A stretch of DNA of 64,000 bases from Sediminispirochaeta bajacaliforniensis DSM 16054 (GTDB lineage Bacteria; Spirochaetota; Spirochaetia; DSM-16054; Sediminispirochaetaceae): assembly GCF_000378205.1 (NCBI RefSeq), contig NZ_KB899427.1, positions 1-64,000 of the forward strand. Direction: 5' to 3'. Below, in pieces: positions 8,267 through 50,386 of this stretch. The position numbers and the translations under genes were made by a program. The notes under the pieces were generated by a model. The model was given only the letters and a program-made list of their open reading frames with translations. It did not search any database and had not been told where the DNA came from. Position 1 is the first letter of the stretch; every line of letters begins with the position of its first letter.

Positions 8267-8274
8267 GGTGCGGC

Positions 8275-9384: not shown

Positions 9385-9461
9385 GGCGTTTAAGCTATCG
9401 CAAAGCGAAGGGAAATGCAAGTCCGGTGGCCACAGTCGAACCCTTGTGATAGGATGGGCTT

Positions 9462-10916: not shown

Positions 10917-10922
10917 TTTGTT

Positions 10923-10952
10923 TTGTACAATTGGTCGCAGTTATGATATAAT
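10923..10952 (+). promoter_or_regulatory. Extended -10 promoter of the two-component pair
   Basis: TTGTAC (10923-10928) and a perfect TATAAT (10947-10952) are 18 bases apart, and TG stands one base before the -10 box. The promoter lies inside what would be the first codons of the kinase if the earliest TTG were used, so it argues for the later start at 10984. Confidence 0.6.
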
Positions 10953-10983
10953 TCATAAGCTATTCAATCGTGAGAACAAGAGT

Positions 10984-12696: not shown

Positions 12697-14072
12697 ATAT
12701 TCTTATAGTGGATGATGAGCCACTTATCCATCGTTCAATTGAATTCATAATACGTCAATTTAAATTTCTGGATATTACCATCTCTCATGCCTACAATGCC
12801 TCTGAAATGTATACATACCTTAAACAACATAACATAGAACTTGCATTTGTTGACATAAGGATGCCCGGTGCCAACGGCCTTTCGGCTATAGCACAGGCCA
12901 AAAATCTTTCATACGACACTCTTTATTTTATTATGAGCGGATACAGTGAATTCGATTATGCAAGGGAGGCAATTACTATTGGTGTGGAAGAATACCTTTT
13001 AAAACCGCTCAATGACGATACGCTCCGTAGAGTGATTAACAGCGTTAGAGAAAAGCATAAACATATTATCGAACAAAGGAAAAACACAATTCGCGGTTGG
13101 TTACACGATGTTATTGATAGGCGAGAATGCCGCGACGAAGCTCTCAACAGGCACGCAATGGCCGCTATTTATGTATCAGATGACCACTCGACCAACTCTG
13201 AAGGGATTTGGGTGCCAAAGTTATACAGTAAATTTGAGGAATATATCGTATCGTGTCCGGCTTCGGATGGCGTTCTTTTCATGATGTATGCTCCTCGCGA
13301 AGAATATATAAATGAAGTGCTGAATACCAATAGAAAAGCGACGATCCCCCATGAAATGACTATGTATATCTCGAAAGTATATTCTGACCCGGCTGAATTT
13401 AGAGATGTTCTGCAGAAAATGCTTGATTTCGCCGGAGTTCGTATTTTACTGGGCATCGGAATGCATTATCAGTTTCATGATATCATCAATTCCAACACGG
13501 GGCTGCTGGATTATGTAAAGGACTGCCTGTACTGGAAAGATTGTTTCCATACGGGCGACTGTCTCGCATATCTTTCGGCCTGTCCTCCTGTTTATCGTCC
13601 GATATATGAAGGAAGTATTCCCGATACATATATAGAAAATATCTATGCATTTATAGCCTGTGTACTCGAGATTAATACTATCGAGTTATCATTACCGAAA
13701 AGACTTCGTTCAATGATGGAACATGCCGGAAATGATATGATTAAAAAACAAAATTCAACCGATAGAATCGACATGATACTGAAATATATAAACGAAAATT
13801 TTTGTACAGATATCTCTATTGCAAGTATTTCCGAACGTTTTGGCATCACGCCTAACTATCTTAGCACACTACTTAACAACAAGCTCGGGATAAAATTCGC
13901 CGATTACCTTTCCGATCTGAGAATAATCTATGCGAAAGAACTGCTTGCAAACACAAACCTTCGGGTAAAAGATATAATGGAAAAAGTGGGATATTACAGC
14001 CAAAGTCATTTCAATAAATTATTTGTAGAAAAGGTAGGAGTCACACCATCGGCATACAGGAAAATCCTCTAA
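12693..14072 (+). CDS. AraC-type response regulator, YesN type
   Basis: The 459-residue regulator has a receiver domain at the N-terminus (MNILIVDDEP; phospho-acceptor Asp54 in FVDIRMPGANG; conserved YLLKPL lysine). A middle region of about 220 residues follows, then a C-terminal AraC DNA-binding domain with two helix-turn-helix units (ISIASISERFGITPNYLSTL and VKDIMEKVGYYSQSHFNKLF). Such proteins activate sugar importer operons by binding direct repeats. The ATGA overlap with the kinase gene indicates coupling. The likely target is the convergent ABC importer operon, whose promoter carries direct repeats at 19664-19691. Confidence 0.88.
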   Translation: MNILIVDDEPLIHRSIEFIIRQFKFLDITISHAYNASEMYTYLKQHNIELAFVDIRMPGANGLSAIAQAKNLSYDTLYFIMSGYSEFDYAREAITIGVEEYLLKPLNDDTLRRVINSVREKHKHIIEQRKNTIRGWLHDVIDRRECRDEALNRHAMAAIYVSDDHSTNSEGIWVPKLYSKFEEYIVSCPASDGVLFMMYAPREEYINEVLNTNRKATIPHEMTMYISKVYSDPAEFRDVLQKMLDFAGVRILLGIGMHYQFHDIINSNTGLLDYVKDCLYWKDCFHTGDCLAYLSACPPVYRPIYEGSIPDTYIENIYAFIACVLEINTIELSLPKRLRSMMEHAGNDMIKKQNSTDRIDMILKYINENFCTDISIASISERFGITPNYLSTLLNNKLGIKFADYLSDLRIIYAKELLANTNLRVKDIMEKVGYYSQSHFNKLFVEKVGVTPSAYRKIL

Positions 14073-34411: not shown

Positions 34412-34825
34412 TTATAGCACTGAATGAACCAAGACGGATAATCCTCTCACATTCTTTTGTGAAATCAAAAGCTCTGCATCGGGATGAATATGTAAATCCT
34501 TCTGAATAGCATACAACAGCATGACTTTTTTAGCCGATGCCGAGGAAACATTGTCACAAGGCACAGCCTTATCGAATTTCTTAATCATCTTTGGATCCAG
34601 TTTTATACTCCGAGCCAAACTCTGTTCCGCCAATTCTTGTAGCTGATCTTCCATACAGTTGTCACTCAAGAGAAATTTTGCCAAGATATACTTGCGCAAA
34701 TGCTCATAAACGAATTCCAAAGAAGGGTCTGACTCGTTTCTGATGATTTCCGCCTCGTTTTCGGCCTTTGCATGAGCCATAGACAACAGATGAATTACAA
34801 GGTTTTTTCGTTTTTCGATTGTCAC
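34412..34825 (-). CDS. Hypothetical protein of the suf-like operon
   Basis: The 137-residue product has a GTG start with GGAGTGAG ahead and no signal peptide or membrane helix. It appears helical and charged (VYEHLRKYILAKFLLSDNCM, MEDQLQELAEQSLARSIKLD), with two cysteines. I do not recognise a family. It lies six bases after the sufE-like gene, is the last gene of the group, and has the same AT-rich composition, so it probably arrived with it. A role in sulfur transfer is only a guess from position. Confidence 0.65.
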   Translation of the reverse strand: MTIEKRKNLVIHLLSMAHAKAENEAEIIRNESDPSLEFVYEHLRKYILAKFLLSDNCMEDQLQELAEQSLARSIKLDPKMIKKFDKAVPCDNVSSASAKKVMLLYAIQKDLHIHPDAELLISQKNVRGLSVLVHSVL

Positions 34826-34831
34826 ACTATC

Positions 34832-35263
34832 TCACTCCGTTTCAATGCATTTTGCGGCAAAATCCTGTATCGTTGAAAAAACAGAATGCAACCCATGGAA
34901 TCGATCCGTAGATATCTGGCTCTTTATATTGGTTTCCTCGATAAAGCGAGGATGAAAAGACAAAATTTCCTCTGGCGTTCTGTTATCCAAAAGCAGTATA
35001 TACATAGCAAGGAAGCCTCTGATAATAAGTGCTTCACTATCAGCTCGAATTCGGACTTTTTTATCGACATACTTCAATATGATCCATACACCTGATTGGC
35101 ACCCTGGAACCTTTCGCTCATTAGTCCTTTCCTGCAATTCGATATGTGGTATATCCACAGAAATCTCTATTAAATATTCGTACTGTAAAAACCAGTCTCC
35201 TAAATTATTAATGTCCTCTATGAAGGTATCTTCCAACTGAGAAATAGACATTTCTTCAGTCAT
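34832..35263 (-). CDS. sufE: SufE-like sulfur acceptor protein
   Basis: SufE takes persulfide sulfur from the cysteine desulfurase SufS and passes it on for iron-sulfur assembly. The 143-residue protein has the family pattern: LEDTFIEDINNLGDWFLQYE at the N-terminus, the acceptor Cys55 in RKVPGCQSGVWI, and ADSEALIIRGFLAMYILLLD. It overlaps sufS by four bases, so the pair is coupled. The scaffold proteins SufBCD are not encoded in this window, so the pair must feed a scaffold encoded elsewhere or another sulfur acceptor. Confidence 0.9.
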   Translation of the reverse strand: MTEEMSISQLEDTFIEDINNLGDWFLQYEYLIEISVDIPHIELQERTNERKVPGCQSGVWIILKYVDKKVRIRADSEALIIRGFLAMYILLLDNRTPEEILSFHPRFIEETNIKSQISTDRFHGLHSVFSTIQDFAAKCIETE

Positions 35264-36486
35264 TTTTTAATCCACCTACTCATTAAATCCTGTGTTTGTC
35301 GTATTGCCAGGCATGCCTCATCGATTTCTGTGCGGGTATTATAAAATGCAGGCGATAATCGAAGCGCCGCAGTAACACCGAACCGCTGTAATGCCGGTTG
35401 AGCACAATGCGTACCCGAGCGGATTGCAACGCCCAATTTGTCTAGTATACTAGCCGCATCATAAGGATGCATAGTATCCAAAACAAAAGAAACTACACCT
35501 GCGCGATTAACAGGATGACCTAAGACATGTAGTCCTGCAACTTCAGAAAGTTTTTCCACGGCATAATCGACAAGCATACTTTCATAATCGGCAATGGCTT
35601 TACGCCCAAGTCTGTCTATATATCGTATTGCTTCCGCTAAGGCAATAGCACCTGGATAGTTGGGCGTTCCAGCCTCTAATCTATACGGCAGCGGTGCTTC
35701 GGTAAAATCTTGATCCGTTACAGTACCTACCATCCCGCCTCCAAGACGTGATGGTTTCAACATCTCCAAGAGTCTTCGTTTACCATATAGCACACCGATA
35801 CCGGCAGGCCCCATGATCTTATGGCCGGAAAAACAGTAAAAATCATAATCTTCTGCAGAAACATGTGTATCGCAGTGCCTAATGCCTTGTGCTCCATCCA
35901 CAAAGATTACAGCACCGGCCTCATGAGCCAGCCGCGTCATCTCGCCCAACGGCATTACTGTTCCCGTAAGATTCGAAACCTGTGTAACTGCGACCAATTT
36001 AGGATTCTGAGAAAGAATTTTCTTGTATGCCTCCATATCAGGCATTCCATCAGGACATGGTATGATTGCAAACGTTGCCCCCGTTCTATGGCACAGCCTT
36101 TGCCACGGAAGAAAATTGGAATGGTGTTCAAGTTCGGTTATGACAATCATATCATTGATATGTAACGTCTCACGCAGCCCATCAGCTGCCATATTGATTG
36201 AATCGGTGGCCCCTTGAGTAAAGACAATCTCTTCTTTACTATCCGCCCCCAAAAAATCACGGACAGTTATTCGCGCATCTTCATAAGCCTGGGTCGACCG
36301 TTCACTAAGGGTATAGATGCCACGATGTATATTTGCATTATCATGCAGATAATGAGAACGAAGCCGCTCCAATACGCAGAGAGGCATCTGCATTGTCGCA
36401 GCATTATCCAGATAAATGAGCGGTCGGCCATCTATTTTTGTTGAAAGTATGGGAAAATCTTCCCGAATTTTTGCTACAGGTAACAT
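35260..36486 (-). CDS. sufS: Cysteine desulfurase, SufS type
   Basis: This PLP enzyme removes sulfur from cysteine, forming a persulfide. The 408 residues show the group II pattern: IYLDNAATMQMPLCVLERL, NANIHRGIYTLSERSTQAYE, ELEHHSNFLPWQ, the PLP lysine Lys223 in FSGHKIMGPAG, and the active-site Cys361 in IRSGTHCAQPAL. It is complete. The gene lies 18 bases downstream of a sugar-isomerase-like gene and overlaps sufE, an unusual mix in one transcript. Its base composition is lower in G and C than the genes on either side of the island. Confidence 0.93.
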   Translation of the reverse strand: MLPVAKIREDFPILSTKIDGRPLIYLDNAATMQMPLCVLERLRSHYLHDNANIHRGIYTLSERSTQAYEDARITVRDFLGADSKEEIVFTQGATDSINMAADGLRETLHINDMIVITELEHHSNFLPWQRLCHRTGATFAIIPCPDGMPDMEAYKKILSQNPKLVAVTQVSNLTGTVMPLGEMTRLAHEAGAVIFVDGAQGIRHCDTHVSAEDYDFYCFSGHKIMGPAGIGVLYGKRRLLEMLKPSRLGGGMVGTVTDQDFTEAPLPYRLEAGTPNYPGAIALAEAIRYIDRLGRKAIADYESMLVDYAVEKLSEVAGLHVLGHPVNRAGVVSFVLDTMHPYDAASILDKLGVAIRSGTHCAQPALQRFGVTAALRLSPAFYNTRTEIDEACLAIRQTQDLMSRWIKK

Positions 36487-36504
36487 AATAGCTTCTTAAA
36501 AAAT

Positions 36505-38049
36505 TTAAACCATAAGCGCTTCAAGTCCAAAAGCATCGGCAAGAAGCTTCAGTTCTTCCACATAGTCACCATAAGCAAGGGCCAGATGATTACCCGTATA
36601 TTTATGAGCCTCAAAAAACTTCTTCTGATCATTTACACGAAAAATCACATAGTTATTACAATTATCAGTATAGTATCCGCCACCGCACACAACAGTACCG
36701 GTGCCAATAAGCATTTTCCTGCAATCGGGAGAGAATCGGCAAATTGTAATCTTCTGACCAACATCCTGGTTAAAGTCATAACGGAAAACAGCTCCGAACT
36801 TTTTATCAAACGCAAAATGCCTCAAGCCGTACTTGGAAGGTTCACAACAAATACCTTTTTTCTTGCGAATCTGGCTGGAATGATCAATAAGGTACAAGTT
36901 GGAGTGATCTGTTACATTGGCCAGATCGTTCTCAAGGTCAAAACGTGAAGAAATAGGAATCACATTCCCACTATCGTCAAATAGTACCGGCCAGGCGTTG
37001 CCTAAAGAAGGCGCCTTATCTGACAGTGTAGTCAACATAAACATAGCCATCATACTGTTAATGTCCGAATCACAGGTGGAAGGGATACCTTGTTCCGTCA
37101 ACAGAGAGTGGTTAAGACAAAAGGTAAATTCCTCCTTGTTCATGCGCATAGTTGAACAAGCATCCGGGCAAGGAAACGTAAAACCATTGCAGTCATATAA
37201 ATTAAGAAGTTTTTCAACCAAAACATAAATCTTGCAGGAATTAATGACATACGTACGTTCGATATCAAGATTGTCAGGTTCTGCCCCTCCAATAAGTTCA
37301 TCCGCCAAGCTTTCAGCTTTTTTTACATCTTCATCAGTAAGATTTGGAGTGTCCATACGACCTGGTGTCGTATAGTTACCACCTTCGGGCAAAGGATGTA
37401 TATAGTCGAAAAACTCATGAAGATTCACATAGCGGAAATGTGTGCCAAAAACATCGGTAACCTGAGGCAGGCTGATAAAAGAATCATTACACGCATACGA
37501 GGTGTTGGAATTAAAGCGTACACCTGCCAGAACATTTGCATTTTGTACCGCTTTTTTTGTTCGCAGTACATTCATTTCCTTTATAAGATCGCTCCATGTA
37601 TTGGCAGCATATGTTTCCAGGCCGCGACTATATAAACTGGCCGTTATAGAGGTGATCATGCATCCCAGCCTTGGGGACAAAAGAATCGGCTTTTTGCTAC
37701 GCTCTGCCAATTCAATAATCTGACGCTCACGTGCAATACCTGAATGAATTAAATAAACATCAATCTCACCAAGAACTTTCATCATTTGATCAAAGTTCTC
37801 CTGAGGCAGAAGCCAATCATCATTACATTCAAAATAGAGCGGTTCCCGAAGTTCCACAAAATCAGGAATATTTTTAACTAAATCGTCCTTAAAATCCGAA
37901 AAAACCTGCTGAGCAGCAATTTTATCATACTCGTTCGTAAGTGCATCGCCTGAAGAAAACCGGCATGGTCCCTCATAAGCGAATTTATGTACAAGTCCAA
38001 AGCAAAGCGGCTGCACATTGAGTTTAACATCTAAGCACCGTCTAATCAT
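36505..38049 (-). CDS. L-fucose/L-arabinose isomerase-like protein
   Basis: The 514-residue protein fits the fucose/arabinose isomerase-like superfamily, whose members interconvert aldoses and ketoses with a manganese ion. Supporting features are the length, an N-terminal Rossmann-like part (DVYLIHSGIARERQIIELAE, KKPILLSPRLGCMITS), the middle FECNDDWLL, and a C-terminal half with TFPCPDACSTMR, CDSDINSMMAMFMLTTLSDK and ATGNH-like YTGNHLALAYGDY. The Glu/Asp/His metal ligands cannot be assigned firmly by eye. The ATG is set by GGAGGG seven bases ahead. It heads the suf-like operon. A catabolic partner kinase is not encoded beside it. Confidence 0.72.
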   Translation of the reverse strand: MIRRCLDVKLNVQPLCFGLVHKFAYEGPCRFSSGDALTNEYDKIAAQQVFSDFKDDLVKNIPDFVELREPLYFECNDDWLLPQENFDQMMKVLGEIDVYLIHSGIARERQIIELAERSKKPILLSPRLGCMITSITASLYSRGLETYAANTWSDLIKEMNVLRTKKAVQNANVLAGVRFNSNTSYACNDSFISLPQVTDVFGTHFRYVNLHEFFDYIHPLPEGGNYTTPGRMDTPNLTDEDVKKAESLADELIGGAEPDNLDIERTYVINSCKIYVLVEKLLNLYDCNGFTFPCPDACSTMRMNKEEFTFCLNHSLLTEQGIPSTCDSDINSMMAMFMLTTLSDKAPSLGNAWPVLFDDSGNVIPISSRFDLENDLANVTDHSNLYLIDHSSQIRKKKGICCEPSKYGLRHFAFDKKFGAVFRYDFNQDVGQKITICRFSPDCRKMLIGTGTVVCGGGYYTDNCNNYVIFRVNDQKKFFEAHKYTGNHLALAYGDYVEELKLLADAFGLEALMV

Positions 38050-38087
38050 TTTTTTATCCCTCCACACCATTTTCATCCATAATGGCT

Positions 38088-38146: not shown

Positions 38147-39388
38147 TTATGCTGATTGCCTGTGTTTCGCCGATAACATCAACGTCAACAAGAAACCCAC
38201 GGCGGCGATGGCAAGACTCACGAGGAAGGCCTTTTGGTAGCTGCCGCTGGAGGCTTTCATCTCGCTCATAATCGTGGGGCCGAAGTAGCCGGACAGGGCA
38301 AACCCGATAAACATGATGCCGTAATTGACGCTGTTGTGTTTTGATCCGAACTGGGCTGCCGTAAAACCGGGGTAGATTCCCATAATCGCACCAAAAGCCA
38401 GCCCGATACAGCTTATACCGACGTAAAACAGAACGACCGACGCGCCGCCGGCGAAATCTCCAGAAACATACAGCACGATAAGGCCTGCCATGGACACGGC
38501 AAAAACGCCGACAAGGGTTTTTATGACACCGACCTTGTCGGACAGGAAACCGGCCACTATGCGGCCGAAAGTGTTTACCAAGGCAAGAAAGGATACCGCA
38601 ACCGCGGCCGAGGCTGCACTCATGCCGATCATCTCCTGTGCGACCGGCGATGCCTGGGAAATTACCATAAGACCGGAAAAGGCACCGCAGCAGAGCATCA
38701 TCATCATCACGTAAAAAATCGGGTCCAAGAGCATCCCCTTCCAGTCTTTTTCGGCTCCGACCGGCCCGCCGCTTTTAGCCGCCGGCGGTGTCCAGCCATC
38801 GGGAACAAAGCCCGGGGGACAGCGGATAATAAAAAACGAAGCGGCCCCTATCAGGATCATCATAACGGCGCCGATGATTTTAAAAGTCGCCGTAACACCG
38901 TTGGCGGCGATGAGGGCGTTGGCTATGGGCGGCATGATGACGGAACAGACGCCGTACGAGGCGGTGACAAGCCCACCTACCAAACCCCGATGGTCCGGAA
39001 AAAACTTGATCATGTTGGCCACCACGCAACCGTATACCAAGCCAAGGCCAAGGCCGGTGCCAAGGCCGTAACTTACGATCAGCATCCCCAAGGATTTGGC
39101 AAATCCGGAAAAGAATATGCCTCCGCCGAAGAGAATCCCCCCGGTAAGGATGATGAACCGAGGGCTTGCCCTGTCGTTGATAAATCCGCCGGAAATCATG
39201 GTAATGGGACCGACGCTGTTCGCCACGGTAAAAACTATGGCAAGGCTGCCCAAGGCAGCCCCTCCCACGGAAGAGAGGTAGGCAGCCATGGGTTTAGCGA
39301 ATACGCTCCAGGCGTATATGGAACCGATGCACAGGTTGACAAGGCAGCTCGCGGCGAGCACAAACCACCGTTTAACGGTTAAGCTCAT
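38147..39388 (-). CDS. OFA-family MFS antiporter (oxalate/formate type)
   Basis: This 413-residue carrier has twelve predicted helices and starts with the OFA signature RWFVLAASCLVNLCIGSIYAWSVF-like RWFVLAASCLVNLCIGSI and YAWSVFAKPM. GxxNDRxSPRFIILTGGIL and VYGCVVANMIKFFPDHRGLV are also typical. OFA proteins exchange small carboxylates such as oxalate, formate or lactate. As the last gene of an operon with alcohol and aldehyde dehydrogenases, it may export the acid product or import a carboxylate substrate. It follows the FAD oxidoreductase gene after 15 bases. Confidence 0.87.
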   Translation of the reverse strand: MSLTVKRWFVLAASCLVNLCIGSIYAWSVFAKPMAAYLSSVGGAALGSLAIVFTVANSVGPITMISGGFINDRASPRFIILTGGILFGGGIFFSGFAKSLGMLIVSYGLGTGLGLGLVYGCVVANMIKFFPDHRGLVGGLVTASYGVCSVIMPPIANALIAANGVTATFKIIGAVMMILIGAASFFIIRCPPGFVPDGWTPPAAKSGGPVGAEKDWKGMLLDPIFYVMMMMLCCGAFSGLMVISQASPVAQEMIGMSAASAAVAVSFLALVNTFGRIVAGFLSDKVGVIKTLVGVFAVSMAGLIVLYVSGDFAGGASVVLFYVGISCIGLAFGAIMGIYPGFTAAQFGSKHNSVNYGIMFIGFALSGYFGPTIMSEMKASSGSYQKAFLVSLAIAAVGFLLTLMLSAKHRQSA

Positions 39389-39403
39389 CTTTCATCAACC
39401 CCA

Positions 39404-40873
39404 TCAGGTCGTCCCATCCAGGATGGCGCCCTGTTTTTTCAGGGTGCTCTGCAGCTCGCTGACGTTTTTTTCCAGCGCCCGGGGTGAAATGCCTTTCTTC
39501 ACGCAGATTGCGGCGGCGGCGCCGGCGGCCTGTCCGGTGATCATGGTTTGGTGCAGGTAACGCAGATAGGCGTCCCGGTCGGTTGAAACGTGCTTGCCTG
39601 CGATAAGCATATTCTCGACTTTTAGCGGAACAAGGCATCGGTAAGGGATGTCATAGGAGCCGTCGTCGCTCGGGCAGACCTTCTCCACCTGGGCGATGGT
39701 GTTCTGGTCGGTGGTGTGGTGTGCGCCAGCCTTGAAGTGGCTCTTACCTATAACATCGGGGAACTCTTTCCCCACAGCTACGTCGTCCCGGGTGAGTTTA
39801 TAGTCGCCCATAATTCTGCGGCCCTCACGCATGCGCAGTTCGGGGCAAAGCCGGGTAAGGTATGCGTTCTTAAAGCCCGGAATGTATTTTCGGAAGAACT
39901 TTAGGGCCAGGATATTCTGCTTACGACAAACCATCTCACCTTTGGTGATGTCCCAGGCATTGTCGGTGAGCACTTCCGGCACCTGGGATGAATGCTGCAT
40001 ATGGGCCTGAATATGGCCGCCTTCCCGGGGGGTAAGGAAGAAGCCCACACCAGAACATCCGTGCCATTCACCGGTCTCGAGCCCCTTTTTGTGGAACTCG
40101 GTAAAGCCCATAATTTCCCCGAACAAGGCCGGGTCGTCGCAGGTCTTGTAGAATTCAAGGGCCTTTTGATGGGCCTGCTCTTTCCGCTCCTCCGACCAAT
40201 GCGGCAGCGTATGTTCGAACCAGACAATCTGATCCGGGTTTTTATGGATCCAGTTCATCAGTTCCTTCCAATCAACCCCATCCATGGTAAAAGAAATCGT
40301 GTGGGGCTGGACAGTTTTTTTATCAACGTATTCGGAAAGGGCACCTGCCCGTACCGCGATGTCCCCTTCTCCGGTGCAGTCAATGATGATGTTTCCTTGG
40401 ATGATCATCGTTCCGTTGGTGTTCTCCACCTCGACGCCGGTCACTTTGTCTCCGTCCTGTACTACATCCACGACAAGGCTGTGAAGCAATAATTCCACCC
40501 CTTCTTCTTCCATCATTTCGAAAATTGTCAGAGCAAACCAGTCCGGGTCTATATACGAAAAGGTGTAGCCTCCTTCAAGCCGGTGCTCCGGTTTAAGATG
40601 CGGCAGGGCGTGCCCCTCTTTCAGCATCCGGGTATGAATCTCCTGAATAATGCCCGCGGCATCCTGTTCGCCTTTTGGGTTAAACAGGTGGGCAAACGCG
40701 AAGCCCGGAGGCCCTGAAAAACAAAGCTGTCCGCCGAGGGCCCCTACCCGTTCAATCAACAGGGTAGACGCTCCGCCTCGAGCCGAGGCAATAGCCGCCG
40801 CGACACCGGAAGTACCGCCGCCGCAAACGATGACATCGTATTTTTTATCAACAATAACCTGTTTTCTCGCCAT
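39404..40873 (-). CDS. FAD-dependent oxidoreductase
   Basis: This 489-residue flavoprotein has the N-terminal dinucleotide-binding motif DVIVCGGGTSGVAAAIASAR with the glycines at 18-23, then ERVGALGGQLCFSGPPGFA, INTCGNG-like NIIIDCTGEGDIAVRAG, and a C-terminal FAD-contacting ISGKHVS-like LIAGKHVSTDRDAYLRYLHQ and TGQAAGAAAAICVKKGISPR. This layout is that of the FAD_oxidored family (related to succinate dehydrogenase/fumarate reductase flavoproteins and sugar-acid dehydratase-like proteins). The substrate is unknown. It is soluble and lacks a signal peptide. The ATG is supported by GGAGG nine bases ahead. Confidence 0.86.
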   Translation of the reverse strand: MARKQVIVDKKYDVIVCGGGTSGVAAAIASARGGASTLLIERVGALGGQLCFSGPPGFAFAHLFNPKGEQDAAGIIQEIHTRMLKEGHALPHLKPEHRLEGGYTFSYIDPDWFALTIFEMMEEEGVELLLHSLVVDVVQDGDKVTGVEVENTNGTMIIQGNIIIDCTGEGDIAVRAGALSEYVDKKTVQPHTISFTMDGVDWKELMNWIHKNPDQIVWFEHTLPHWSEERKEQAHQKALEFYKTCDDPALFGEIMGFTEFHKKGLETGEWHGCSGVGFFLTPREGGHIQAHMQHSSQVPEVLTDNAWDITKGEMVCRKQNILALKFFRKYIPGFKNAYLTRLCPELRMREGRRIMGDYKLTRDDVAVGKEFPDVIGKSHFKAGAHHTTDQNTIAQVEKVCPSDDGSYDIPYRCLVPLKVENMLIAGKHVSTDRDAYLRYLHQTMITGQAAGAAAAICVKKGISPRALEKNVSELQSTLKKQGAILDGTT

Positions 40874-40887
40874 ACTTGTTCCTCCGT

Positions 40888-42588
40888 CTATTTTTTGAAT
40901 TCTTCGATTGACTTCGCAGCTTTGCCGTCGGGAAGTGCGATCGGTTCCACAATGCCCTCGCTGTGCAGGGCCCAAGGAAGTATGATGCCGTCGTGGCCTC
41001 CTCGACCGCCGACCACCACCACTTCAACATCTTTGGGCGACCGTGTAACCGGCATAGGGTGCCGGTTTTTAAAGCTTTCGGGCCGAACCGGAACAAGGCC
41101 CCGATTCCGTATCATAGGTACCTCGTGGTACACATAGGTGTGGATGTGTTCCTGAATCATTTTTTTTGTGTAACCGGCATTTTTCAACATCATGCCATGA
41201 TCCGGGGTGATAGCCATGACCAGCGGGCCTGGCATATAGGCATTGTTGGAACCAAGAGTAGTGCAGCAATGAGTCAGTGTGTCCAGAAGGTCGTAACCGT
41301 CAAGGCTTAAAAAGTCGATGACGTCATGAATCGGTTCGGCCTTAAGGACGTAAACCGTTGTGGTATTCTTGTCGAAGTGGTCTTCGTTGATCATGTTCCA
41401 CTGGGCCAGTTCCGGTTCCTCGGCGAAGCAGTAGGTAAACTCCGCCTGGCTGGCGATGCAGTCAAGGTCGCAGACCCCGGGTACGGAACGAAGCACGTTC
41501 ATGATGGCCAGGTTGACCGCCCGGCCGATGGTTGCGTTCATCGGCCAACCAGGGCCCATACAGCCTTGTTTGCCGGAGATACCGATTTCCTGGGCGATGG
41601 GTCCGGACACCAGCACAAGATTGCCGCCCGGGTGTGATGTGGTGACGCTCTGGTTAAAGTTGTAGAGTGGGTTGCCCAGGGCTTTAAAAGCCGCTATCAG
41701 TATGGGCATCGCCTTGGGTTTGCAGCCCGCCATTACCGCCGCTATGGCCACGTCCTTGACCGTTATACTCTTTCCGGACGGGCCCGAGGGAGGGCAAAGG
41801 ACCAGGCTTTCCGAGAAGGGGCAATAGGCCAGCATTTTTTCGTACCGTACCCTTGTGGGCGGAATAATCGGTAAACCATCACTGATATGCTCGTCGTTAA
41901 AGTAATCGTTGATCAGCTCCAGGTTGTCGCAAGGTTCTTCTTCGCTACCGAGCTCGAAGGTTTTGGGAAGGTAGCCGTCTTTCGCGGGAGGAACCTTGTC
42001 CATCTTGAAATCGATATGGGATAGTTTTGCAAGCTCCTCGCCGTTGGAAGTGAGGGCCTTTAAAATATAGTCCCATTTTACATCTACCTGATGAGCTACC
42101 TCTTCCACGGTACTGGCCTGGTAAATATCCACCGAGCACAGGCAAAGCTGTCCGGCACGGTATACGCCTACACCTTCGGTAATCGCCGATCCCGGAGGCG
42201 CAGTCATGTACACCGCGGGAATACCCAGTTTTTCTAGTTCGATAGTAACCACTGTGGTTGAAGAAGAAGTGCCCATGTCTCCTAAAGCCACAATCGCCGC
42301 GACCGGTTTCTCTTTGGCCAGCATGGCCGCGTAATCGGCCAGTTTCTTTGCGTCTTTGCCCCGGACAGTCTCGGTGTATTCCACAAAGTTCGAGGCGCCG
42401 ATTTCCTGGAGTTTTTCTTTTATACGGCCAAATACCGTATAGTAATTACAAAACCCAAGTTTGGTGTTGTTGTAAAAAAGGATTTTTCCTTTTTTCAATT
42501 CATCCAAGGACGACCGCTTCGCCATGGTAATGGCGGTCCTGTTCTGAAAGCCCCTGGGATCCAATAATCTGTTTTGTTGTTTTCCCAT
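40888..42588 (-). CDS. UGSC-family-like two-part protein lacking the UGSC motif
   Basis: The 566-residue protein has two parts. Residues 35-135 resemble the UGSC (seleno)protein domain: ILFYNNTKLGFCNYYTVFGR and IVALGDMGTSSSTTVVTIEL then EKLGIPAVYMT. In the family this site reads [U/C]GSC; here the four positions are Met105-Gly106-Thr107-Ser108, so the redox pair is gone. The second part (about 230-566) has DGLPIIPPTRVRYEKMLAY, GCKPKAMPILIAAFKAL, GPGWPMNATIGRAVNLAIMN and CTTLGSNNAYMPGPLVMA, a conserved but uncharacterised domain often near such proteins. ATG is preceded by AAGGAGAT. Reaction unknown; probably part of the operon's oxidative pathway. Confidence 0.7.
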   Translation of the reverse strand: MGKQQNRLLDPRGFQNRTAITMAKRSSLDELKKGKILFYNNTKLGFCNYYTVFGRIKEKLQEIGASNFVEYTETVRGKDAKKLADYAAMLAKEKPVAAIVALGDMGTSSSTTVVTIELEKLGIPAVYMTAPPGSAITEGVGVYRAGQLCLCSVDIYQASTVEEVAHQVDVKWDYILKALTSNGEELAKLSHIDFKMDKVPPAKDGYLPKTFELGSEEEPCDNLELINDYFNDEHISDGLPIIPPTRVRYEKMLAYCPFSESLVLCPPSGPSGKSITVKDVAIAAVMAGCKPKAMPILIAAFKALGNPLYNFNQSVTTSHPGGNLVLVSGPIAQEIGISGKQGCMGPGWPMNATIGRAVNLAIMNVLRSVPGVCDLDCIASQAEFTYCFAEEPELAQWNMINEDHFDKNTTTVYVLKAEPIHDVIDFLSLDGYDLLDTLTHCCTTLGSNNAYMPGPLVMAITPDHGMMLKNAGYTKKMIQEHIHTYVYHEVPMIRNRGLVPVRPESFKNRHPMPVTRSPKDVEVVVVGGRGGHDGIILPWALHSEGIVEPIALPDGKAAKSIEEFKK

Positions 42589-42591
42589 TTC

Positions 42592-42923
42592 TTATCTCCT
42601 TGCATAATCCTCAAAGGGATTTTTCAAACCTACCGCCGGTTTGGGTGGCGGCGTGTAGCCCGTCTTTTTCCAGAGGGGCTTGTTGTATTCGGACAACATG
42701 TCCGCAGGAATGATGCCCGTACACATAGTAATCATGGTCCCCTCATCGTCGGGTTCATAAGTCCAGGGGAGATACCAATGCAGTCGGCGCTGGTCCCATA
42801 CTTGGAAATCCACTCCCTATACGCCAAATACAGGCAGGAATTCTGATCCAGGGATGGGGAGGGCACCCAATACGTTTTCTGATGATGAAGGGTCATAAGC
42901 CTATTTTCTTTAGCCGTGAGCAT
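42592..42923 (-). pseudogene. Small conserved gene, apparently frameshifted
   Basis: The first frame starts behind GGGAGAGGTAT and reads MLTAKENRLMTLHHQKTYWV, LDQNSCLYLAYREWISKYGT and SADCIGISPGLMNPTMRGP before a stop near 42732. A second frame continues with WTYEPDDEGTMITMCTGIIP, ADMLSEYNKPLWKKTGYTPP and ends NPFEDYARR three bases before the UGSC-like gene. The two look like parts of one protein of about 110 residues joined by a shift near 42740-42790. Alternatively there are two tiny overlapping genes. I do not recognise the family. Confidence 0.5.
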
Positions 42924-42993
42924 ATACCTCTCCCCTTCCCCCTTTTCAGGGACTTAATGCAGAGAACTATTCTTCAAAATGCCCGATAGAACG

Positions 42994-44052
42994 TTATTTA
43001 ACGATGCTCTTATACGTATCCCTGGTAATCATAGTGCCGGAAATCTTGATAACCGCGTATTGCTGTCCGGCTTCCTTGAACTGGGGGAAAATATCCTCGA
43101 CCTTTTTACCTTCCCGGCAAATGGCCAGCATACCTTCAACCATATATTTCGCGTAATCCATGGCGTTGTAATAACAAGTAGCCCACCAACAGGGAGACGC
43201 GTTGTTGGCCCATTCCTTTACCGCCAGTTCGCCACCAGCGCTGACAAGGATCGTTTTCTTTTCCACGCCGGCGGCTTCAATCGCCCTGACGGCACCGAGG
43301 CCATAGTGGTCGACCGTGCCCATAACGAGCCAGGCGCTGACCTCCGGATGGGAAGCGATAATGGCGGAAGTCTGCTTGTAGGACGCTTCGGCCATATCCT
43401 GGCTGCCGGTCTCCGCGGCGCAGTCGGCCATGAAGATGTTAGAATCTTTCAGTCCAGGGAAGCCTTTTTTAAGTCCGGTGACAAAGCCGTTAGCTCGGTT
43501 GATATCCGACTGATACTTGCTGTTCGTACCTTTAATAACGCCAACGGTTTCAATCTTGGAAAGATCCACACCGGTAGTTTTCCAGTTGCCGATAATCCAT
43601 TGGGCGCATTTATCGCCGACGCCTTCCGCATCAAGTTCAACGTACGGGGCAAGCACTCTCCCCGAACCGTCCTTTAACTTTAACGTTTCACCGATTACCG
43701 GCACTTTAGCGTCGTTAAACTTCGACACCACCGCCGGGGCACTTCCTTCGTCGACCACAAAAAGGAAGGCGCCGTCGATTCCCGAGAGAAGCCCCACATC
43801 CACCTGCGAAAGCTGCGTTTCAATTTTTCGATTCGCGTCGGCGGTGCGCACTTCAAAATTGTACTGGGCTCCCAGTTCCTTTAAGGACGTTTCGATGTCT
43901 TGTATCCATTGCACCGTAAATGATGTGGCAAAATATTCGAAAACAAGTGTTTTTTGCCCCTCCGATGCAGAATCGGAATCCGTGACACCGTTGGCGAACA
44001 CCGCCGTTACCAAAGCGATGGTCATAATTAGCGCGATCGCTTTTCTCTTCAT
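42994..44052 (-). CDS. Ribose/arabinose-type ABC transporter substrate-binding protein
   Basis: This 352-residue exported protein has a signal peptide (MKRKAIALIMTIALVTAVFA). It belongs to the periplasmic-binding family 4 used by Rbs/Ara/Xyl importers: FEYFATSFTVQWIQDIETSL, ADANRKIETQLSQVDVGLLS, GAFLFVVDEGSAPAVVSKFN, IKGTNSKYQSDINRANGFVT and WLVMGTVDHYGLGAVRAIEA. The last of these resembles the AraF hinge region. It is encoded 26 bases after its permease gene in the nine-gene operon. The ligand is unknown; a polyol, alditol or pentose would suit the dehydrogenases. Confidence 0.88.
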   Translation of the reverse strand: MKRKAIALIMTIALVTAVFANGVTDSDSASEGQKTLVFEYFATSFTVQWIQDIETSLKELGAQYNFEVRTADANRKIETQLSQVDVGLLSGIDGAFLFVVDEGSAPAVVSKFNDAKVPVIGETLKLKDGSGRVLAPYVELDAEGVGDKCAQWIIGNWKTTGVDLSKIETVGVIKGTNSKYQSDINRANGFVTGLKKGFPGLKDSNIFMADCAAETGSQDMAEASYKQTSAIIASHPEVSAWLVMGTVDHYGLGAVRAIEAAGVEKKTILVSAGGELAVKEWANNASPCWWATCYYNAMDYAKYMVEGMLAICREGKKVEDIFPQFKEAGQQYAVIKISGTMITRDTYKSIVK

Positions 44053-44078
44053 AACTTTCCCCCCTTTCCTTAAAAAAT

Positions 44079-45062
44079 TTATCTTTCAAGCCTCTCCCTA
44101 CGGAAGAAGTCAAATATCAAAGCCGCAATTAAAATCAGACCTTTTGCGACAATCTGCCAAAAGGCCGAAACGTTAATAACCGTAAGGCCGTTGTTGAAAC
44201 ATTGCATGATAAGAAGACCAATAAAGCAGCCCTTCAGGTTTCCCTTGCCGCCTGTGAAAGCCACTCCACCGAGGATGGCCGCGGTAATGGCGTCAAACTC
44301 CGCTCCGGCACCTCCCCCCGGCTGTCCTGAGTGCATTTTTGCGGTCATCAATACACCGGCGAAAGCCGCTACCATGGCGCTAATGATGTACAGAATTGTG
44401 CTGATTTTTTTTGGATTTAAACCGGCCAAACACGCCGCGGTGGGGTTGCCGCCTATCATATAGACGCTCCTCCCGAATACGGTCCGTCCCAGGATAAACC
44501 CGAAAATTATGAAAAAGACGATGAGTAAAATCGCAGGAAACGGAATTCCGGCAATTTTCATGGTACCGAATTTGATGAACATTTCCTCATTTATGGGGAC
44601 CGATTTCCCCTTACAGATAATAAACGCAAGTCCAGAACACACCGAAGAGACCGCCAGTGTGGCTATAAAAGGCTGAAGACCAAAAATGTTTACCAAACAC
44701 GAATTAACCAGTCCTACCGAAACACTGGCGATTACCACCACAAGGGAAGCAATAGGCCAGGGAACGCCGGCGTTGATCAAAATCGCCACCAAAGTCCCAA
44801 AAAGGGCTGCCACGTTGGCACTTGCCAGATCGATATGACCAGCGATAATAAGATAGGTTTCGCCGATGGCCAAAAGGCCTACGGTCGAGGCTGCCAGCAG
44901 TATATTGGTCATATTGAAATAGGACAGGTAATTCCTGTTCATGAACGTAAAAAAGGAAATTTCCAGCAGCAAGACGACCAACATCATGATCTCGCTCGAT
45001 TGCATGAGACTCTTGGTCAGTCCCGTATTCTCGCTTTTATTTATTTTTCCGCTGTTTTCCAT
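44079..45062 (-). CDS. Ribose-type ABC transporter permease
   Basis: This 327-residue inner-membrane protein matches the RbsC/AraH family: about eight to ten helices, [60 protein letters not shown] and [20 protein letters not shown]. The last segment is the family's most conserved stretch. It forms the channel as a homodimer, so only one permease gene is needed. It lies three bases from the ATPase gene. Confidence 0.93.
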
Positions 45063-45065
45063 CGG

Positions 45066-46556
45066 TTACCTTTCCCTCATGGCAAGTTTTAAAACATTTT
45101 CTTCGGAGAGTTCTTCCCGGTTCAGTTCTCCGGTTATCCGGCCTTCCCGCATTACGATTACCCGGTCGCTGACATTAACGACTTCAGGCAGTTCAGATGA
45201 AATAAAAATCACCCCGAGGCCCGATTTAGCCAAATCACAGATCATTTGATAGATTTCCGCCTTGGTCCCCACATCGATACCTTTGGTCGGTTCGTCGAGG
45301 ATAAGAACTTTGAGGTTCGCCAGGAGCCAGCGCCCGAGGATAACCTTCTGCTGGTTCCCGCCGGAAAGTTCCACCGCCACTTTGTCTATCGAAGGGGTTT
45401 TGATCCGTTGTTTTTCCACCGCCAGCCTCGCGATTTGCCGTTCGTTCCGGCGGCTTATCACCCCGAGCTTTGCCAGGTTATGCAGAATCGGAATAGTCAG
45501 ATTTTCCCTGATCGAACGCTCGAGGACGAGTCCCTGCTCTTTGCGATCTTCTGGGCAAACACCGATACCCGCGAGGATCGCGTTCCGAGGGCTTCGTATT
45601 TTCTGGATTTTTCCATTAACGTAAATCTCACCCGCATTGAGCTTGTCAGCGCCGAAAATAGCTCTGATGGTTTCCGAACGTCCGGCGCCTACAAGGCCCG
45701 CGAAACCGAGCACCTCCCCCTTATGGAGGGTAAAATTCACACCTTTGATATAATCATTTTCAAGGCCTTTCGCTTCCAGTACCACTTCGCCGATTTTGTC
45801 GTTCCGGCTCAAATTATTAAACACGTCGCCGATATTTCGGCCTACCATCTTCAGCACAAGTTCGTCTTCGGTGGCGTCGGTGGTTTTTACCTCTTCGATA
45901 AAACAGCCGTCTTTTAAAATGATGATCTTGTCAGCTATCTTAAAAATTTCTTTCATTCGGTGGGACACATAGAAAATAACCTTCCCTTTCTGTTTGAGCT
46001 TTTCGATAAGCGAGAAAAGTACCTTGATTTCAGGATCCGAAAGGGAAGCCGTAGGTTCGTCAAAAGCGATTATCATACTATTACGGCGGTAGGCTTTCAT
46101 GATCTCCACCATCTGCTGATGGGCGACTGACAGGGAATTCACTTTATCGTGGGGGTGAAAAGGCATCTGGAAGAGGTCGATGAGTTTTTTCATCTCGCCG
46201 TGAGATTTCCTGAAATTGACAACGCCCAATTTATTCCGATAGAGGTCTTCCATAAAAACGTTCTCCGTCACGCTCAAGTCCCCCACAAGCTGGCGTTCCT
46301 GGTAAATCACACTGACGCCGTAACGGAGCGCCTCGATCGGTGACTTAAAAAGAACCTTTTTACCGTTAATAAAATATTCACCGGAGCTTGCTTCCCGGGC
46401 GCCGGTTAAAATTTTCAAAAGGGTACTTTTACCCGCGCCGTTTTCTCCGAGGAGTGCGCAGACTTCACCGCCATCGGCCCGGAAGCTGATATTGTCCAAG
46501 GCTTGGACGCCGACAAAGGCTTTGCTAATATTCTTAAACTCAACGTAGTTTTCCAT
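45066..46556 (-). CDS. Ribose-type ABC transporter ATPase, two nucleotide-binding domains
   Basis: This 496-residue protein fuses two ABC domains, as RbsA/AraG/XylG do. The first has Walker [17 protein letters not shown] (about 36-51), [14 protein letters not shown] as a diverged signature, and Walker [13 protein letters not shown]. The second has the family's altered Walker [17 protein letters not shown], the signature [14 protein letters not shown] and [13 protein letters not shown]. Normally only one site hydrolyses ATP well. It is encoded eight bases downstream of the aldehyde dehydrogenase gene. Confidence 0.93.
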
Positions 46557-46564
46557 GCCGTCCC

Positions 46565-48061
46565 CTATTGGAGAAAACCTTTCAGCACGATATTTTTGAT
46601 CTTGGTCATCTCATGCAAAGTAGTCAGCCCTTCGTTCCCCATGCCGCTCATTTTCTGGCCGCCGAAGGGCTGCATTTGGTTGCGGTACACCGAGGACCCG
46701 TTCACAACCATGCCGCCCGACTGCACATTCCGCGCGACGTGCATACCCAGTTTCCAGTCTTTAGTCATCACGCAACCGGAAAGCCCAAAGTCACTAGCGT
46801 TGGCAATTTCGATCGCTTCATCCATCGTATCAAAGCCGATAATCGGCCACACAGGGCCGAAGATTTCCATATTCTTCGCCACGTCCATATCTTTGGTAAC
46901 CCCAGAGAGTACCGTCGGCCAGTAAAAAGCCCCTTCCCTCCTGCCACCACATTCGAGCTTTGCTCCCTGGTCTATGGTCTTTTGAACCTGCTCCTCAACC
47001 TGCTCTGCGGCCTCTTCGCTGATAAGGGCGCCCATTTTCTCTCCCTTGGCGTTCGTGCGGTCGGTATGGGAAAAGGCCTCGTCCATTATTTCTTCGATAT
47101 TGTCGTCGTAGCCCACTTCGATCCCTTTAACCAGCTCCAAAAGTTTTTGAGTAAAAGCTTCCTTGACGCTGTTGTGCACGATAAAGCGTTTTGAAGAAAT
47201 ACAAATCTGCCCTGAGTTGCCTTTACGGCTCCCCCAAGCCCTGGCTGCCGCCGCATCGATATCCGCGTCAGGCATAACGATAAAGGGATCGTTGCCGCCT
47301 AATTCCAATACACAGGGTGCAAGACGTTTGGCCATAAGCTCGGCAATGCCTACACCCACTTCTGTACTGCCGGTCATGCTCACAGCGTCAACTCCGGGGT
47401 TCCGCAGGAGCCAATCTCCAACCTTCGATCCCGAGCCGGTTATAATCTGCAGGGCGTTGCCCGGAACACCGGCTTTCAGCAGGAGTTCGGTAATAAGAAT
47501 GTCCGTTAAAGGATTGTCCGTCGGCGGCTTCACGATGACCGCGTTCCCTGCGGCCAGCGCGGGGGCCACTTTGTACGCGTAAAGCAGCATAGGTGCGTTA
47601 AAAGGCACTATTGCCGCCACGGTGCCCAAAGGCTCATGGGTTACCATAATGAGATCTTGGGCTGTTTTGCCGTCATGCCCCGGTTCAGAGCCCGGCACGA
47701 GAAGTTGGCCGTCGAGCCGCTTTGCCGCCTCAATGTACCCGGGGAAAACCGATATCGTCTGGTTATATTCAAAAATCGTCGTGGCCACATGTTTACCGCA
47801 TTCCCGGGTGCAAACCGCGATAATCTCACGCTTTCGTTCCTCAAGAAGCTGCACGAACGTTTGAATAATTTTTTCTTTATCCATGAGCGGAATAGCGGCC
47901 CATTCCTTCTGCCCTTCCTTGGCGTTGACTACCGCTTCGTTCACATCCTCTTCGGTAGCCATGGGAATGGTATCGAGCTTTTTATTATTCGCCGGGTTGA
48001 TAACGTCGATGGTTTTACCGTCCCGCGAGCTGGTTTTCCTGCCACCAATAATCATCTGCAT
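46565..48061 (-). CDS. NAD(P)-dependent aldehyde dehydrogenase
   Basis: The 498-residue enzyme oxidises an aldehyde to a carboxylate. The catalytic Cys287 lies in KGNSGQICISSKRF and the general base Glu253 in VLELGGNDPFIV. The cofactor site contains VAAIVPFNAPMLLYAYKVAP and AVIVKPPTDNP, and the nucleotide loop MTGSTEVGVGIAELM. A mature full-length ALDH superfamily protein without targeting signals. It follows the iron alcohol dehydrogenase gene after 12 bases, so the pair probably converts a primary alcohol to the acid. The exact subfamily (lactaldehyde, betaine aldehyde or succinate semialdehyde type) cannot be fixed by eye. Confidence 0.92.
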   Translation of the reverse strand: MQMIIGGRKTSSRDGKTIDVINPANNKKLDTIPMATEEDVNEAVVNAKEGQKEWAAIPLMDKEKIIQTFVQLLEERKREIIAVCTRECGKHVATTIFEYNQTISVFPGYIEAAKRLDGQLLVPGSEPGHDGKTAQDLIMVTHEPLGTVAAIVPFNAPMLLYAYKVAPALAAGNAVIVKPPTDNPLTDILITELLLKAGVPGNALQIITGSGSKVGDWLLRNPGVDAVSMTGSTEVGVGIAELMAKRLAPCVLELGGNDPFIVMPDADIDAAAARAWGSRKGNSGQICISSKRFIVHNSVKEAFTQKLLELVKGIEVGYDDNIEEIMDEAFSHTDRTNAKGEKMGALISEEAAEQVEEQVQKTIDQGAKLECGGRREGAFYWPTVLSGVTKDMDVAKNMEIFGPVWPIIGFDTMDEAIEIANASDFGLSGCVMTKDWKLGMHVARNVQSGGMVVNGSSVYRNQMQPFGGQKMSGMGNEGLTTLHEMTKIKNIVLKGFLQ

Positions 48062-48073
48062 CAGAACACCTCC

Positions 48074-49303
48074 CTAGTTTTTACTTGCGATAATTTTAGA
48101 GTAATAATTCGTCCGCTTAATCAGATAGGCGAAATCCTTCATCATAGTTACTCTTGGGTATGCACACTGGTCGTTGGGAGTCGTATCCTTGTTATTGAAA
48201 ATCGGATGCTTCAACATAAGATCGAGCACATCGTTGTCATTGTAACCCCATTCCTCAAACGTTTTGCCTCCAGCGATATGGAGGTCCCGGCAAAGATCGA
48301 TAACCCAGTCGATCAGCATCCTCACCTCGAAATCTCCTTCGGGAATATTTTTCTTGGTGATGGCATTATAAGCTTTGCGGTATTTTTCTTTGCAACCCTG
48401 ACCGTTCCATTCAATTACAGCGGGAAGCACCATGCCGCAGGCATCGCCGTGTGGCATGTGAAAAGGCTCTTCCGACATAGGGTGGGTAATTACATGATCC
48501 TGCCCTATACTGGCGATACCAAGGGAAAATCCCGAGTACATACAGCCGAGACTCATCATGTTGGCCCACTTCGTAACCGCAGGGTTCGCCACAAACGGCC
48601 GTATCGCCTCGCCGATAAGTTCCAGCGAATGAAGCGAAAAGAGTTCAGTAAAATCGTTCGCATTCATGTTGGTGTAGGATTCAAGACCGTGGGTAAATGC
48701 GTCCACCGCAGTCGCCGCAGCCACTGCAAAGGGAAGTCCGGCAAGCAAATGAGGATCCATAACAGCGTAAGCCGGTAAAATCGAATCGTGCATGGGAACG
48801 AGTTTAAAACCTTTCTGGTCGCAAATAACCGCGTTTCTGCACACCTCACTGCCGGTACCAGCCGTTGAGGGAACCGCAATAATTGGATAAGTTTTATGGG
48901 GCAACGGTTTCGCGGGAGGCCAGCCCATAAAGTCCATCACCCCATGATCCGTTTCGCCGACAATTGCAACGCCCTTGGCGGTATCCATAGTACTGCCGCC
49001 CCCCACGGCGATAAGCGCATCGACCTTAAACTGATGGGCCTGCGGTATCGCCTCGTCTTCTATGGTAACGGCCTCAGGATTAGGGCGTACATTGGTAAAC
49101 AGGGTATACTCCACTCCGGGAGCGGCCTTTAAAAGGGCTTCCACGGGTTTGATCACCCCGGCCTTGTACAAGCCTGGATCGGCAACCAGCATTACCCGCT
49201 TCCATCCCTCGGTTTCCAAAACCCGGGGAATAACCGAAATACATCCCGGCCCCTGGTAAATCTTTTGTCTTACGCCGAACTGTAAAAACTTCTCGATTGC
49301 CAT
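48074..49303 (-). CDS. Iron-containing alcohol dehydrogenase
   Basis: This 409-residue group III alcohol dehydrogenase uses NAD(P) and a metal ion, usually iron. The nucleotide loop is ALIAVGGGSTMDTAKGVAIV, the central region is PIIAVPSTAGTGSEVCRNAV, and the metal site contains DAFTHGLESY and the histidines in HVITHPMSEEPFHMPHGDAC. All expected ligands appear present. It is the first gene of the nine-gene minus-strand operon, with GAGGAG ahead of ATG, and lies downstream of the LysR gene. Substrate unknown; propanediol-type and polyol substrates are common in this family. Confidence 0.93.
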   Translation of the reverse strand: MAIEKFLQFGVRQKIYQGPGCISVIPRVLETEGWKRVMLVADPGLYKAGVIKPVEALLKAAPGVEYTLFTNVRPNPEAVTIEDEAIPQAHQFKVDALIAVGGGSTMDTAKGVAIVGETDHGVMDFMGWPPAKPLPHKTYPIIAVPSTAGTGSEVCRNAVICDQKGFKLVPMHDSILPAYAVMDPHLLAGLPFAVAAATAVDAFTHGLESYTNMNANDFTELFSLHSLELIGEAIRPFVANPAVTKWANMMSLGCMYSGFSLGIASIGQDHVITHPMSEEPFHMPHGDACGMVLPAVIEWNGQGCKEKYRKAYNAITKKNIPEGDFEVRMLIDWVIDLCRDLHIAGGKTFEEWGYNDNDVLDLMLKHPIFNNKDTTPNDQCAYPRVTMMKDFAYLIKRTNYYSKIIASKN

Positions 49304-49471: not shown

Positions 49472-49496
49472 CAACTATTCCGATTTGGAATAGTTG
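49472..49496 (-). terminator. Rho-independent terminator of the LysR gene
   Basis: CAACTATTCC and GGAATAGTTG form a perfect ten-base-pair stem with a five-base loop, followed on the minus strand by TTTTTTTA. The stem contains the gene's stop codon, so the last codons are part of the terminator. This isolates lysR from the downstream dehydrogenase operon. Confidence 0.85.
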
Positions 49497-50386
49497 TCGA
49501 TATATTCCCAGAAGGCCTCGGACGCAGCATTATGGAAGCTATTTCGCAGGCGGGTCAGACAGATAGATCTTTCCGCGGTAGGAATAATATCGCGAACAAC
49601 AAGATCCTCCGATGTGATGTGGGAGGTAAATTTTTCCATAAGTAGGGCGATACCCATTTTGTTCTGGACGAATTCAAAAACATTTCCAATTCGGGTGCCC
49701 TGAAAATACACATTAGGAGTAAACCCCGCTTCCTCGCAAAGTCTAACGCAGTAAGAATACGTGGTGGTCCGGTTACTCAAAAAACACAGCGGTTCGGTAC
49801 GCAGCTGCTGCAGCTCTATCTGTTTCTGCTCAGCCAGCGGACAACTGCGATTCACTACGGCGACCAGATGATCCCTGGTAAAGGCGATCTTTTCAAATCG
49901 CTTTGTTTTAAGAAAAAGCGAATCGCAAAAAACAAGATCAAACTCGCCGGAACTAAGACTGTTACTCAGCAGCTTATCCTCGTTATATTTAAACTCGTTC
50001 ATCTTTATCGTGAAATTGGGAAATTCGGTTCTGAAAGCGGCCACCGCTTCTACGATACCGTAAAACTCCATGGTGATCAGGCACCCCAGATTGAAATCCA
50101 TCTGCTCCTGGTCAATGAACTGGCACAATTCCTTGTTCATCTGTAAAAAGCAATCATTGAATTTTTTCGCATAGGGAAGAAAAAACTGACCACCAATTGA
50201 AAGCCTGGTTGTTTTATTGTTACGGATAAAAAGCTGTATACCCAGTGTTTTTTCCAGAGCCTGTATATGTTTCGAAAGCGCCGACTGGGTAATGTACAGT
50301 TCGTCGGCCGCGGCAGAAAAATTTTTACACTCGACTAACTTTAAAAAGTCATTGATATGGAAGAAGTTCAAATCCCAGCTTTTCAT
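49475..50386 (-). CDS. LysR-family transcriptional regulator
   Basis: This 303-residue regulator has the N-terminal winged helix-turn-helix (FHINDFLKLVECKNFSAAAD, ELYITQSALSKHIQALEKTL, GIQLFIRNNKTTRLS) and a C-terminal effector-binding domain (FDLVFCDSLFLKTKRF, PLCFLSNRTTTYSYCVRLCE). It lies directly upstream of the alcohol dehydrogenase operon but on the same strand, separated by its own terminator, unlike the common divergent arrangement. It is the best candidate to control that operon in response to its substrate. Confidence 0.92.
   Translation of the reverse strand: MKSWDLNFFHINDFLKLVECKNFSAAADELYITQSALSKHIQALEKTLGIQLFIRNNKTTRLSIGGQFFLPYAKKFNDCFLQMNKELCQFIDQEQMDFNLGCLITMEFYGIVEAVAAFRTEFPNFTIKMNEFKYNEDKLLSNSLSSGEFDLVFCDSLFLKTKRFEKIAFTRDHLVAVVNRSCPLAEQKQIELQQLRTEPLCFLSNRTTTYSYCVRLCEEAGFTPNVYFQGTRIGNVFEFVQNKMGIALLMEKFTSHITSEDLVVRDIIPTAERSICLTRLRNSFHNAASEAFWEYIDNYSKSE

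Follow-up and report, generated by a model that had tools for sequence, protein, structure and literature searches.

Proteins in which an N-terminal UGSC domain is fused to a C-terminal domain called Unknown_1 were described in 2008. That report (PMC2398784) proposes a thioredoxin-like fold, assigns no function, and places UGSC among the selenoprotein families that are most frequent in ocean metagenomes. In papers that name UGSC together with GrdB of glycine reductase (PF07355), the two apparently figure in lists of selenoproteins. The window analyzed here (64,000 nucleotides, positions 1 to 64,000 of contig NZ_KB899427.1 of Sediminispirochaeta bajacaliforniensis DSM 16054) contains an operon whose UGSC-like protein shares the two-domain layout of these GOS fusion selenoproteins (PF24696, NF041046) and scores above the PF24696 cut-off. 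The GOS proteins carry UGSC or CGSC and have a thioredoxin reductase neighbor, whereas the branch represented in the window carries MGTS, has a FAD_oxidored neighbor, and comes chiefly from gut Bacillota and Treponema. GrdB, of which only the C-terminal region is matched, has the Sec loop UGTC, as opposed to MGTS without Sec or Cys in the window. With respect to transport, the importer belongs with AraFGH/RbsABC-type systems and is nearest to AraG and AraH, yet its ATPase and permease stay below the AraG and AraH cut-offs; the MFS protein exceeds that of the OFA/L-lactate carrier model NF049980. Judged from these comparisons, the operon looks like a conserved selenium-free and thiol-free branch of a GrdB-like enzyme superfamily that is apparently coupled to a flavoprotein.

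Operon architecture and the broken ninth gene

From 49303 down to 38147 on the minus strand, the operon comprises genes for an iron-type alcohol dehydrogenase (Fe-ADH), an aldehyde dehydrogenase (ALDH), an ABC ATPase, an ABC permease, a binding protein, the UGSC-like fusion, an FAD oxidoreductase, and an MFS carrier (Table 1). The first-pass annotation had named Fe-ADH, ALDH, a ribose-type importer, and UGSC-like, FAD oxidoreductase and carboxylate transporter proteins, all of which are confirmed by profile matches. It had also counted nine genes separated by 3–70 bases. Both figures need correction: eight genes are intact and the ninth is a URO-D pseudogene remnant, and the intact genes are spaced by 3–26 bp with the sole exception of a 405-bp gap (42589–42993) between the genes of the binding protein and the UGSC-like protein.

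Table 1. Features of the operon and its upstream flank (window coordinates).
Feature	Coordinates	Strand	Supporting match or remark
LysR-type regulator (candidate operon regulator)	49475..50386	-	PF00126 and PF03466; upstream of operon
Terminator-like hairpin closing the upstream LysR gene	49498-49470		
Iron-type alcohol dehydrogenase (Fe-ADH)	48074..49303	-	PF00465/PF25137
Aldehyde dehydrogenase (ALDH)	46565..48061	-	PF00171, 474 bits
Ribose/arabinose-type ABC importer ATPase	45066..46556	-	PF00005 twice; nearest AraG (NF008442), 585 bits (cut-off 689)
ABC importer permease	44079..45062	-	PF02653; nearest AraH, below cut-off
Periplasmic sugar-type binding protein	42994..44052	-	PF13407
URO-D-family gene remnant (pseudogene)	42592..42923	-	tblastn match in pieces spread over more than one frame
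UGSC-like/Unknown_1 fusion, 566 aa	40888..42588	-	PF24696; MGTS at residues 105-108 replacing U/CGSC
PF12831 FAD-dependent oxidoreductase	39404..40873	-	312 bits
MFS monocarboxylate transporter, L-lactate (SfMCT) type	38147..39388	-	NF049980, 395.8 bits (cut-off 320)

The gap holds two short open reading frames (42732–42923 and 42592–42813) that differ in frame. At the same operon position, the Lachnospiraceae MAG Candidatus Scatomonas merdavium (L025) has an intact URO-D gene (PF01208), and residues 1–62, 208–220, and 296–343 of its 345-aa product match the gap in order and in more than one frame by tblastn. A reading frame of about 345 aa is absent at 42592–42923, where only the three fragments are found. 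The same remnants are present in the second species of the genus (G001), with the gap being 90% identical as compared with 96% over the whole 19 kb. The ordered pieces and their recurrence in G001 thus mark the supposed ninth gene as a pseudogene remnant, and both short frames are, on this evidence, leftovers of one URO-D-family gene.

The operon is collinear in G001 (96% nucleotide identity over 19 kb), and L025 has the same gene order without the MFS gene; hence, the arrangement goes beyond chance. Protein identities to L025 are 85% for Fe-ADH, 81% for ALDH, 74% for the ATPase, 69% for the permease, 60% for the binding protein, 84% for the fusion, and 86% for the FAD protein. Relative to G001, the operon genes show dN/dS values of 0.026–0.148. 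The MFS gene has a dS of 0.027, its neighbors 0.10–0.19, for which recent recombination or strong codon constraint are possible causes. Gene families and synteny also support the earlier view of a co-directional catabolic operon for import, alcohol and aldehyde oxidation, and carboxylate transport. The operon probably imports and oxidizes a small molecule, and oxidation of an alcohol to an acid is plausible. Past the downstream end of the operon, GC content drops from 54% to approximately 41%, and the gene that follows matches no family significantly. The adjoining region (34412–38076; GC about 41–42%) contains SufS/SufE-like genes and encodes a 523-aa protein with a marginal fucose-isomerase-like match only.

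The models closest to Fe-ADH are those of GbsB choline dehydrogenase and of lactaldehyde reductase, whose cut-offs it misses by a wide margin, and its best solved relatives are FucO lactaldehyde reductases; for ALDH the nearest model is lactaldehyde dehydrogenase, again below cut-off. A choline-to-betaine pathway, suggested by GbsB as the top Fe-ADH model, was rejected on account of these low scores. The best solved relative of the binding protein is L-arabinose-binding protein (E = 4e-9), and the protein reached the cut-off of none of the specificity models. An ordinary diol or lactaldehyde route would account for several of these matches: 1,2-propanediol or a deoxysugar product would be imported by the AraG/AraH-like system, and oxidized by the FucO-like Fe-ADH and the lactaldehyde-type ALDH, and lactate would be exchanged by the MFS carrier, whose score exceeds the L-lactate transporter cut-off, the UGSC-like and FAD proteins being accessory. 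We consider this route unlikely, as Fe-ADH (202–205 bits versus about 523–537) and ALDH (389 versus 650 bits) fall far short of the lactaldehyde reductase and dehydrogenase equivalog cut-offs, and the UGSC-like/FAD pair persists in loci that have neither Fe-ADH nor ALDH in the same run of genes. The MFS protein likewise stays below the oxalate/formate antiporter equivalog TIGR04259 (155.3 versus 335 bits).

The UGSC-like fusion protein and its relation to GrdB

The fusion matches PF24696 with 30.3 bits (gathering cut-off 25) over residues 8–129 of 566 only, and the remainder forms the Unknown_1 domain, which lacks a Pfam match. The equivalog of UGSC (seleno)proteins, NF041046, is not reached (25.6 versus 125 bits). 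The protein had been termed "motif-less", which is correct insofar as the letters UGSC or CGSC are absent but misleading in that MGTS is an invariant signature of the whole subfamily. It replaces UGSC/CGSC in at least 40 full-length members, is identical in 37 of 37 aligned members, and occurs likewise in the Sporomusa, Vibrio and second G001 copies. Sequences that are 72–88% identical to the window fusion also share GDMGTS, TAPPG and YRAG as well as MAGC and C-F-A-E-E of Unknown_1, and most members, canonical as well as derived, retain the Unknown_1 cysteines of MAGC and of C-x-x-E-E/N-E. Measured against G001, the fusion has a dN/dS of 0.048 and the FAD protein one of 0.026. The fusion is no decayed singleton but a strongly conserved protein under purifying selection.

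In MGTS the Sec position has changed from U to M and the second cysteine to serine, which leaves no working thiol or selenol at that site. Moreover, selenocysteine could hardly be made in the host, as its genome has no match to SelA. The loss of both redox positions in every aligned member would suit a non-catalytic scaffold or sensor of the FAD enzyme, a selenoprotein fossil. We regard this as very unlikely because the invariance of the MGTS loop with its surroundings, MAGC, and C-F-A-E-E suggests a working site.

Canonical relatives on plasmids have CGSC or, in Acidovorax sp. T1 and Paracoccus ferrooxidans, a TGA codon that precedes GSC in frame. On Acidovorax plasmid p2-T1 (L061; 7947–9302) the UGSC gene is fused to Unknown_1, and on pFER4 of P. 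ferrooxidans (L064; 7408–7977) selB lies near the UGSC gene; in both, TGA is located exactly at the U of UGSC. Since TGA breaks the frame, these genes are annotated as split or are missing from annotation; both probably encode selenoproteins. A Clostridia genome (G359:C34, loci L057/L058) encodes tandem, apparently secreted Unknown_1 proteins, one of them with a UGSC-like domain that carries CGCGIC.

The origin of the UGSC domain was addressed by HMM-HMM comparison of UGSC profiles with GrdB sequences (PF07355) read through their TGA. Probabilities were 95.0% for canonical members only and 96.0% for all members, with 17 control profiles (16 neighbor families and GrdE) reaching at most 4.8%. 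The alignment sits on the UGTC Sec loop, and canonical members continue into an IPHPLG-like stretch. MGTS members alone reached 37% against GrdB but 97.3% against canonical UGSC, and the link to GrdB therefore runs through the canonical proteins. As the comparisons were single-template and the GrdB profile contains few effective sequences, their E-values are indicative. Profile comparison thus identifies the UGSC domain as a putative homolog of the Sec domain of GrdB. No GrdB was found in the host genome, and a role of Unknown_1 as a GrdE-like partner was rejected (profile comparison 0.1%). AlphaFold modeled the fusion with low confidence (67.8), the N-terminal half being merely alpha/beta. 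Foldseek returned no significant structural match for this model, and a search of solved structures gave chance matches only with the fusion family profile and none with the FAD protein.

Partner genes, transfer and candidate substrates

The FAD gene starts with ATG at 40873 rather than TTG at 40975, and its product is the only near-full-length PF12831 match in the host genome (312 bits; next 68). A gene-neighborhood survey of the UGSC-like subfamily, proposed in the first-pass annotation, covered 42 loci. The FAD gene lies in the same run as the fusion in 34 of them, and contig ends and a crude ORF caller explain some of the others. Fe-ADH (six loci, plus four with a second type), ALDH (six), and the ribose-type importer are present in some loci and absent from others. 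The most constant pair across loci are the UGSC-like and FAD proteins, whose roles had seemed unexplained and which are not extras. Other members of these runs are TRAP DctPQM (11 loci), ABC ATPase (nine), URO-D (eight), UbiD (seven), UbiX (six), and AOR (two), and importers of the ribose-type ABC, TRAP, and TAXI classes are interchangeable. The second locus of G001 (L079; G001:C1:3617000-3636500) combines the fusion/FAD pair with UbiD, a TAXI-TRAP-type importer, URO-D, ALDH, and Fe-ADH; a counterpart of its UbiD was not found in the genome of the window strain. On a Vibrio europaeus plasmid (L060; pVEu, 7661–12948) a distant MGTS fusion (46% identity) is flanked by aconitase X genes on one side and by a gene annotated as enolase on the other, and no FAD_oxidored gene adjoins it.

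Genes for trxB or a trxB-like protein are found near canonical U/CGSC genes on four plasmids (Arthrobacter, Roseovarius, and two of Variovorax) and in none of the MGTS runs. The single thioredoxin reductase match near MGTS genes (L031) was discarded since it lies at a distance of about 6 kb, next to a separate cluster of the GrdB type.

In a fusion tree, rooted at the midpoint and containing two long branches, the window protein, G001 copy 1, a Treponema MAG (L005), and L025 form one clade (98/99), and two other Treponema copies (L006 and G001 copy 2) are placed elsewhere among Bacillota. Among 59 genera searched around that of the window, only the latter has the fusion, and in the class of a Lachnospiraceae carrier it occurs in two of 291 genomes, that carrier included. 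This pattern fits repeated horizontal transfer, apparently including gut Firmicutes.

Because sister loci contain UbiD/UbiX, URO-D, and corrinoid genes, the substrate may just as well be an aromatic or other acid as the polyol or alcohol envisaged at first. Accordingly, plant aromatic alcohols or acids come into question: Fe-ADH and ALDH would deliver an aromatic acid that is decarboxylated by UbiD/UbiX and demethylated by URO-D/corrinoid proteins in sister strains, the window strain having a shortened form. VdcC/VdcB-like UbiD and UbiX in six to seven loci, URO-D in eight, and a corrinoid protein in L019 agree with this, as do carriers such as Sporobacter termitidis, Lactonifactor longoviformis and Sporomusa termitida, which use methoxylated or lignan aromatics. 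Nevertheless, we hold it to be improbable for this operon, where UbiD is absent, the URO-D gene is broken, and the importer is of the ribose type, whose cargo is usually a sugar; furthermore, the VdcC/VdcB matches are below cut-off, and the sole corrinoid domain found in the host genome belongs to a 1175-aa frame that is probably MetH. O-demethylation in the window organism itself is unlikely given the broken URO-D gene and the failure to find a stand-alone corrinoid protein. Both the polyol/diol and the plant-aromatic readings are live.

Proposed pathway and implications

The model that we tentatively put forward, at somewhat less than an even chance, is that of an anaerobic catabolic operon spread by horizontal exchange, in which the UGSC-like/Unknown_1 fusion and the PF12831 flavoprotein together make up one enzyme, encoded by two genes, that is the most constant part. 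The fusion would descend from a Sec- or Cys-dependent enzyme, its UGSC part being homologous to the Sec domain of GrdB, and the FAD partner would have taken over the redox function. The substrate, the catalytic steps with their order, and the direction of transport that we infer would be as follows. A small hydroxylated compound may be imported by the ABC system and converted by Fe-ADH and ALDH from alcohol via aldehyde to acid. The FAD/fusion pair would then act on this acid, with the Unknown_1 active site (the cysteines of MAGC and C-x-x-E-E/N-E) and the GrdB-like pocket binding and cleaving or rearranging it, and a monocarboxylate would pass through the MFS carrier. The score of the latter above the L-lactate transporter cut-off hints at a lactate-like product. 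It is conceivable, if rather doubtful, that a GrdB/UGSC lineage fused to Unknown_1 gave up Sec and thiols and had thioredoxin replaced by a dedicated flavoprotein, thereby giving rise to a new anaerobic enzyme with which gut bacteria attack plant-derived compounds.

The operon also points to a catabolic toolbox common to anaerobes of termites, the rumen, and the intestine, for which, to our knowledge, nobody has named a substrate. The MGTS branch represents a natural selenium-free and highly conserved version of the enzyme with a constant flavoprotein partner, and it should be easier to express. For the UGSC family, the link to GrdB provides the first concrete candidate chemistry, that is, reductive cleavage of an activated C-X bond.
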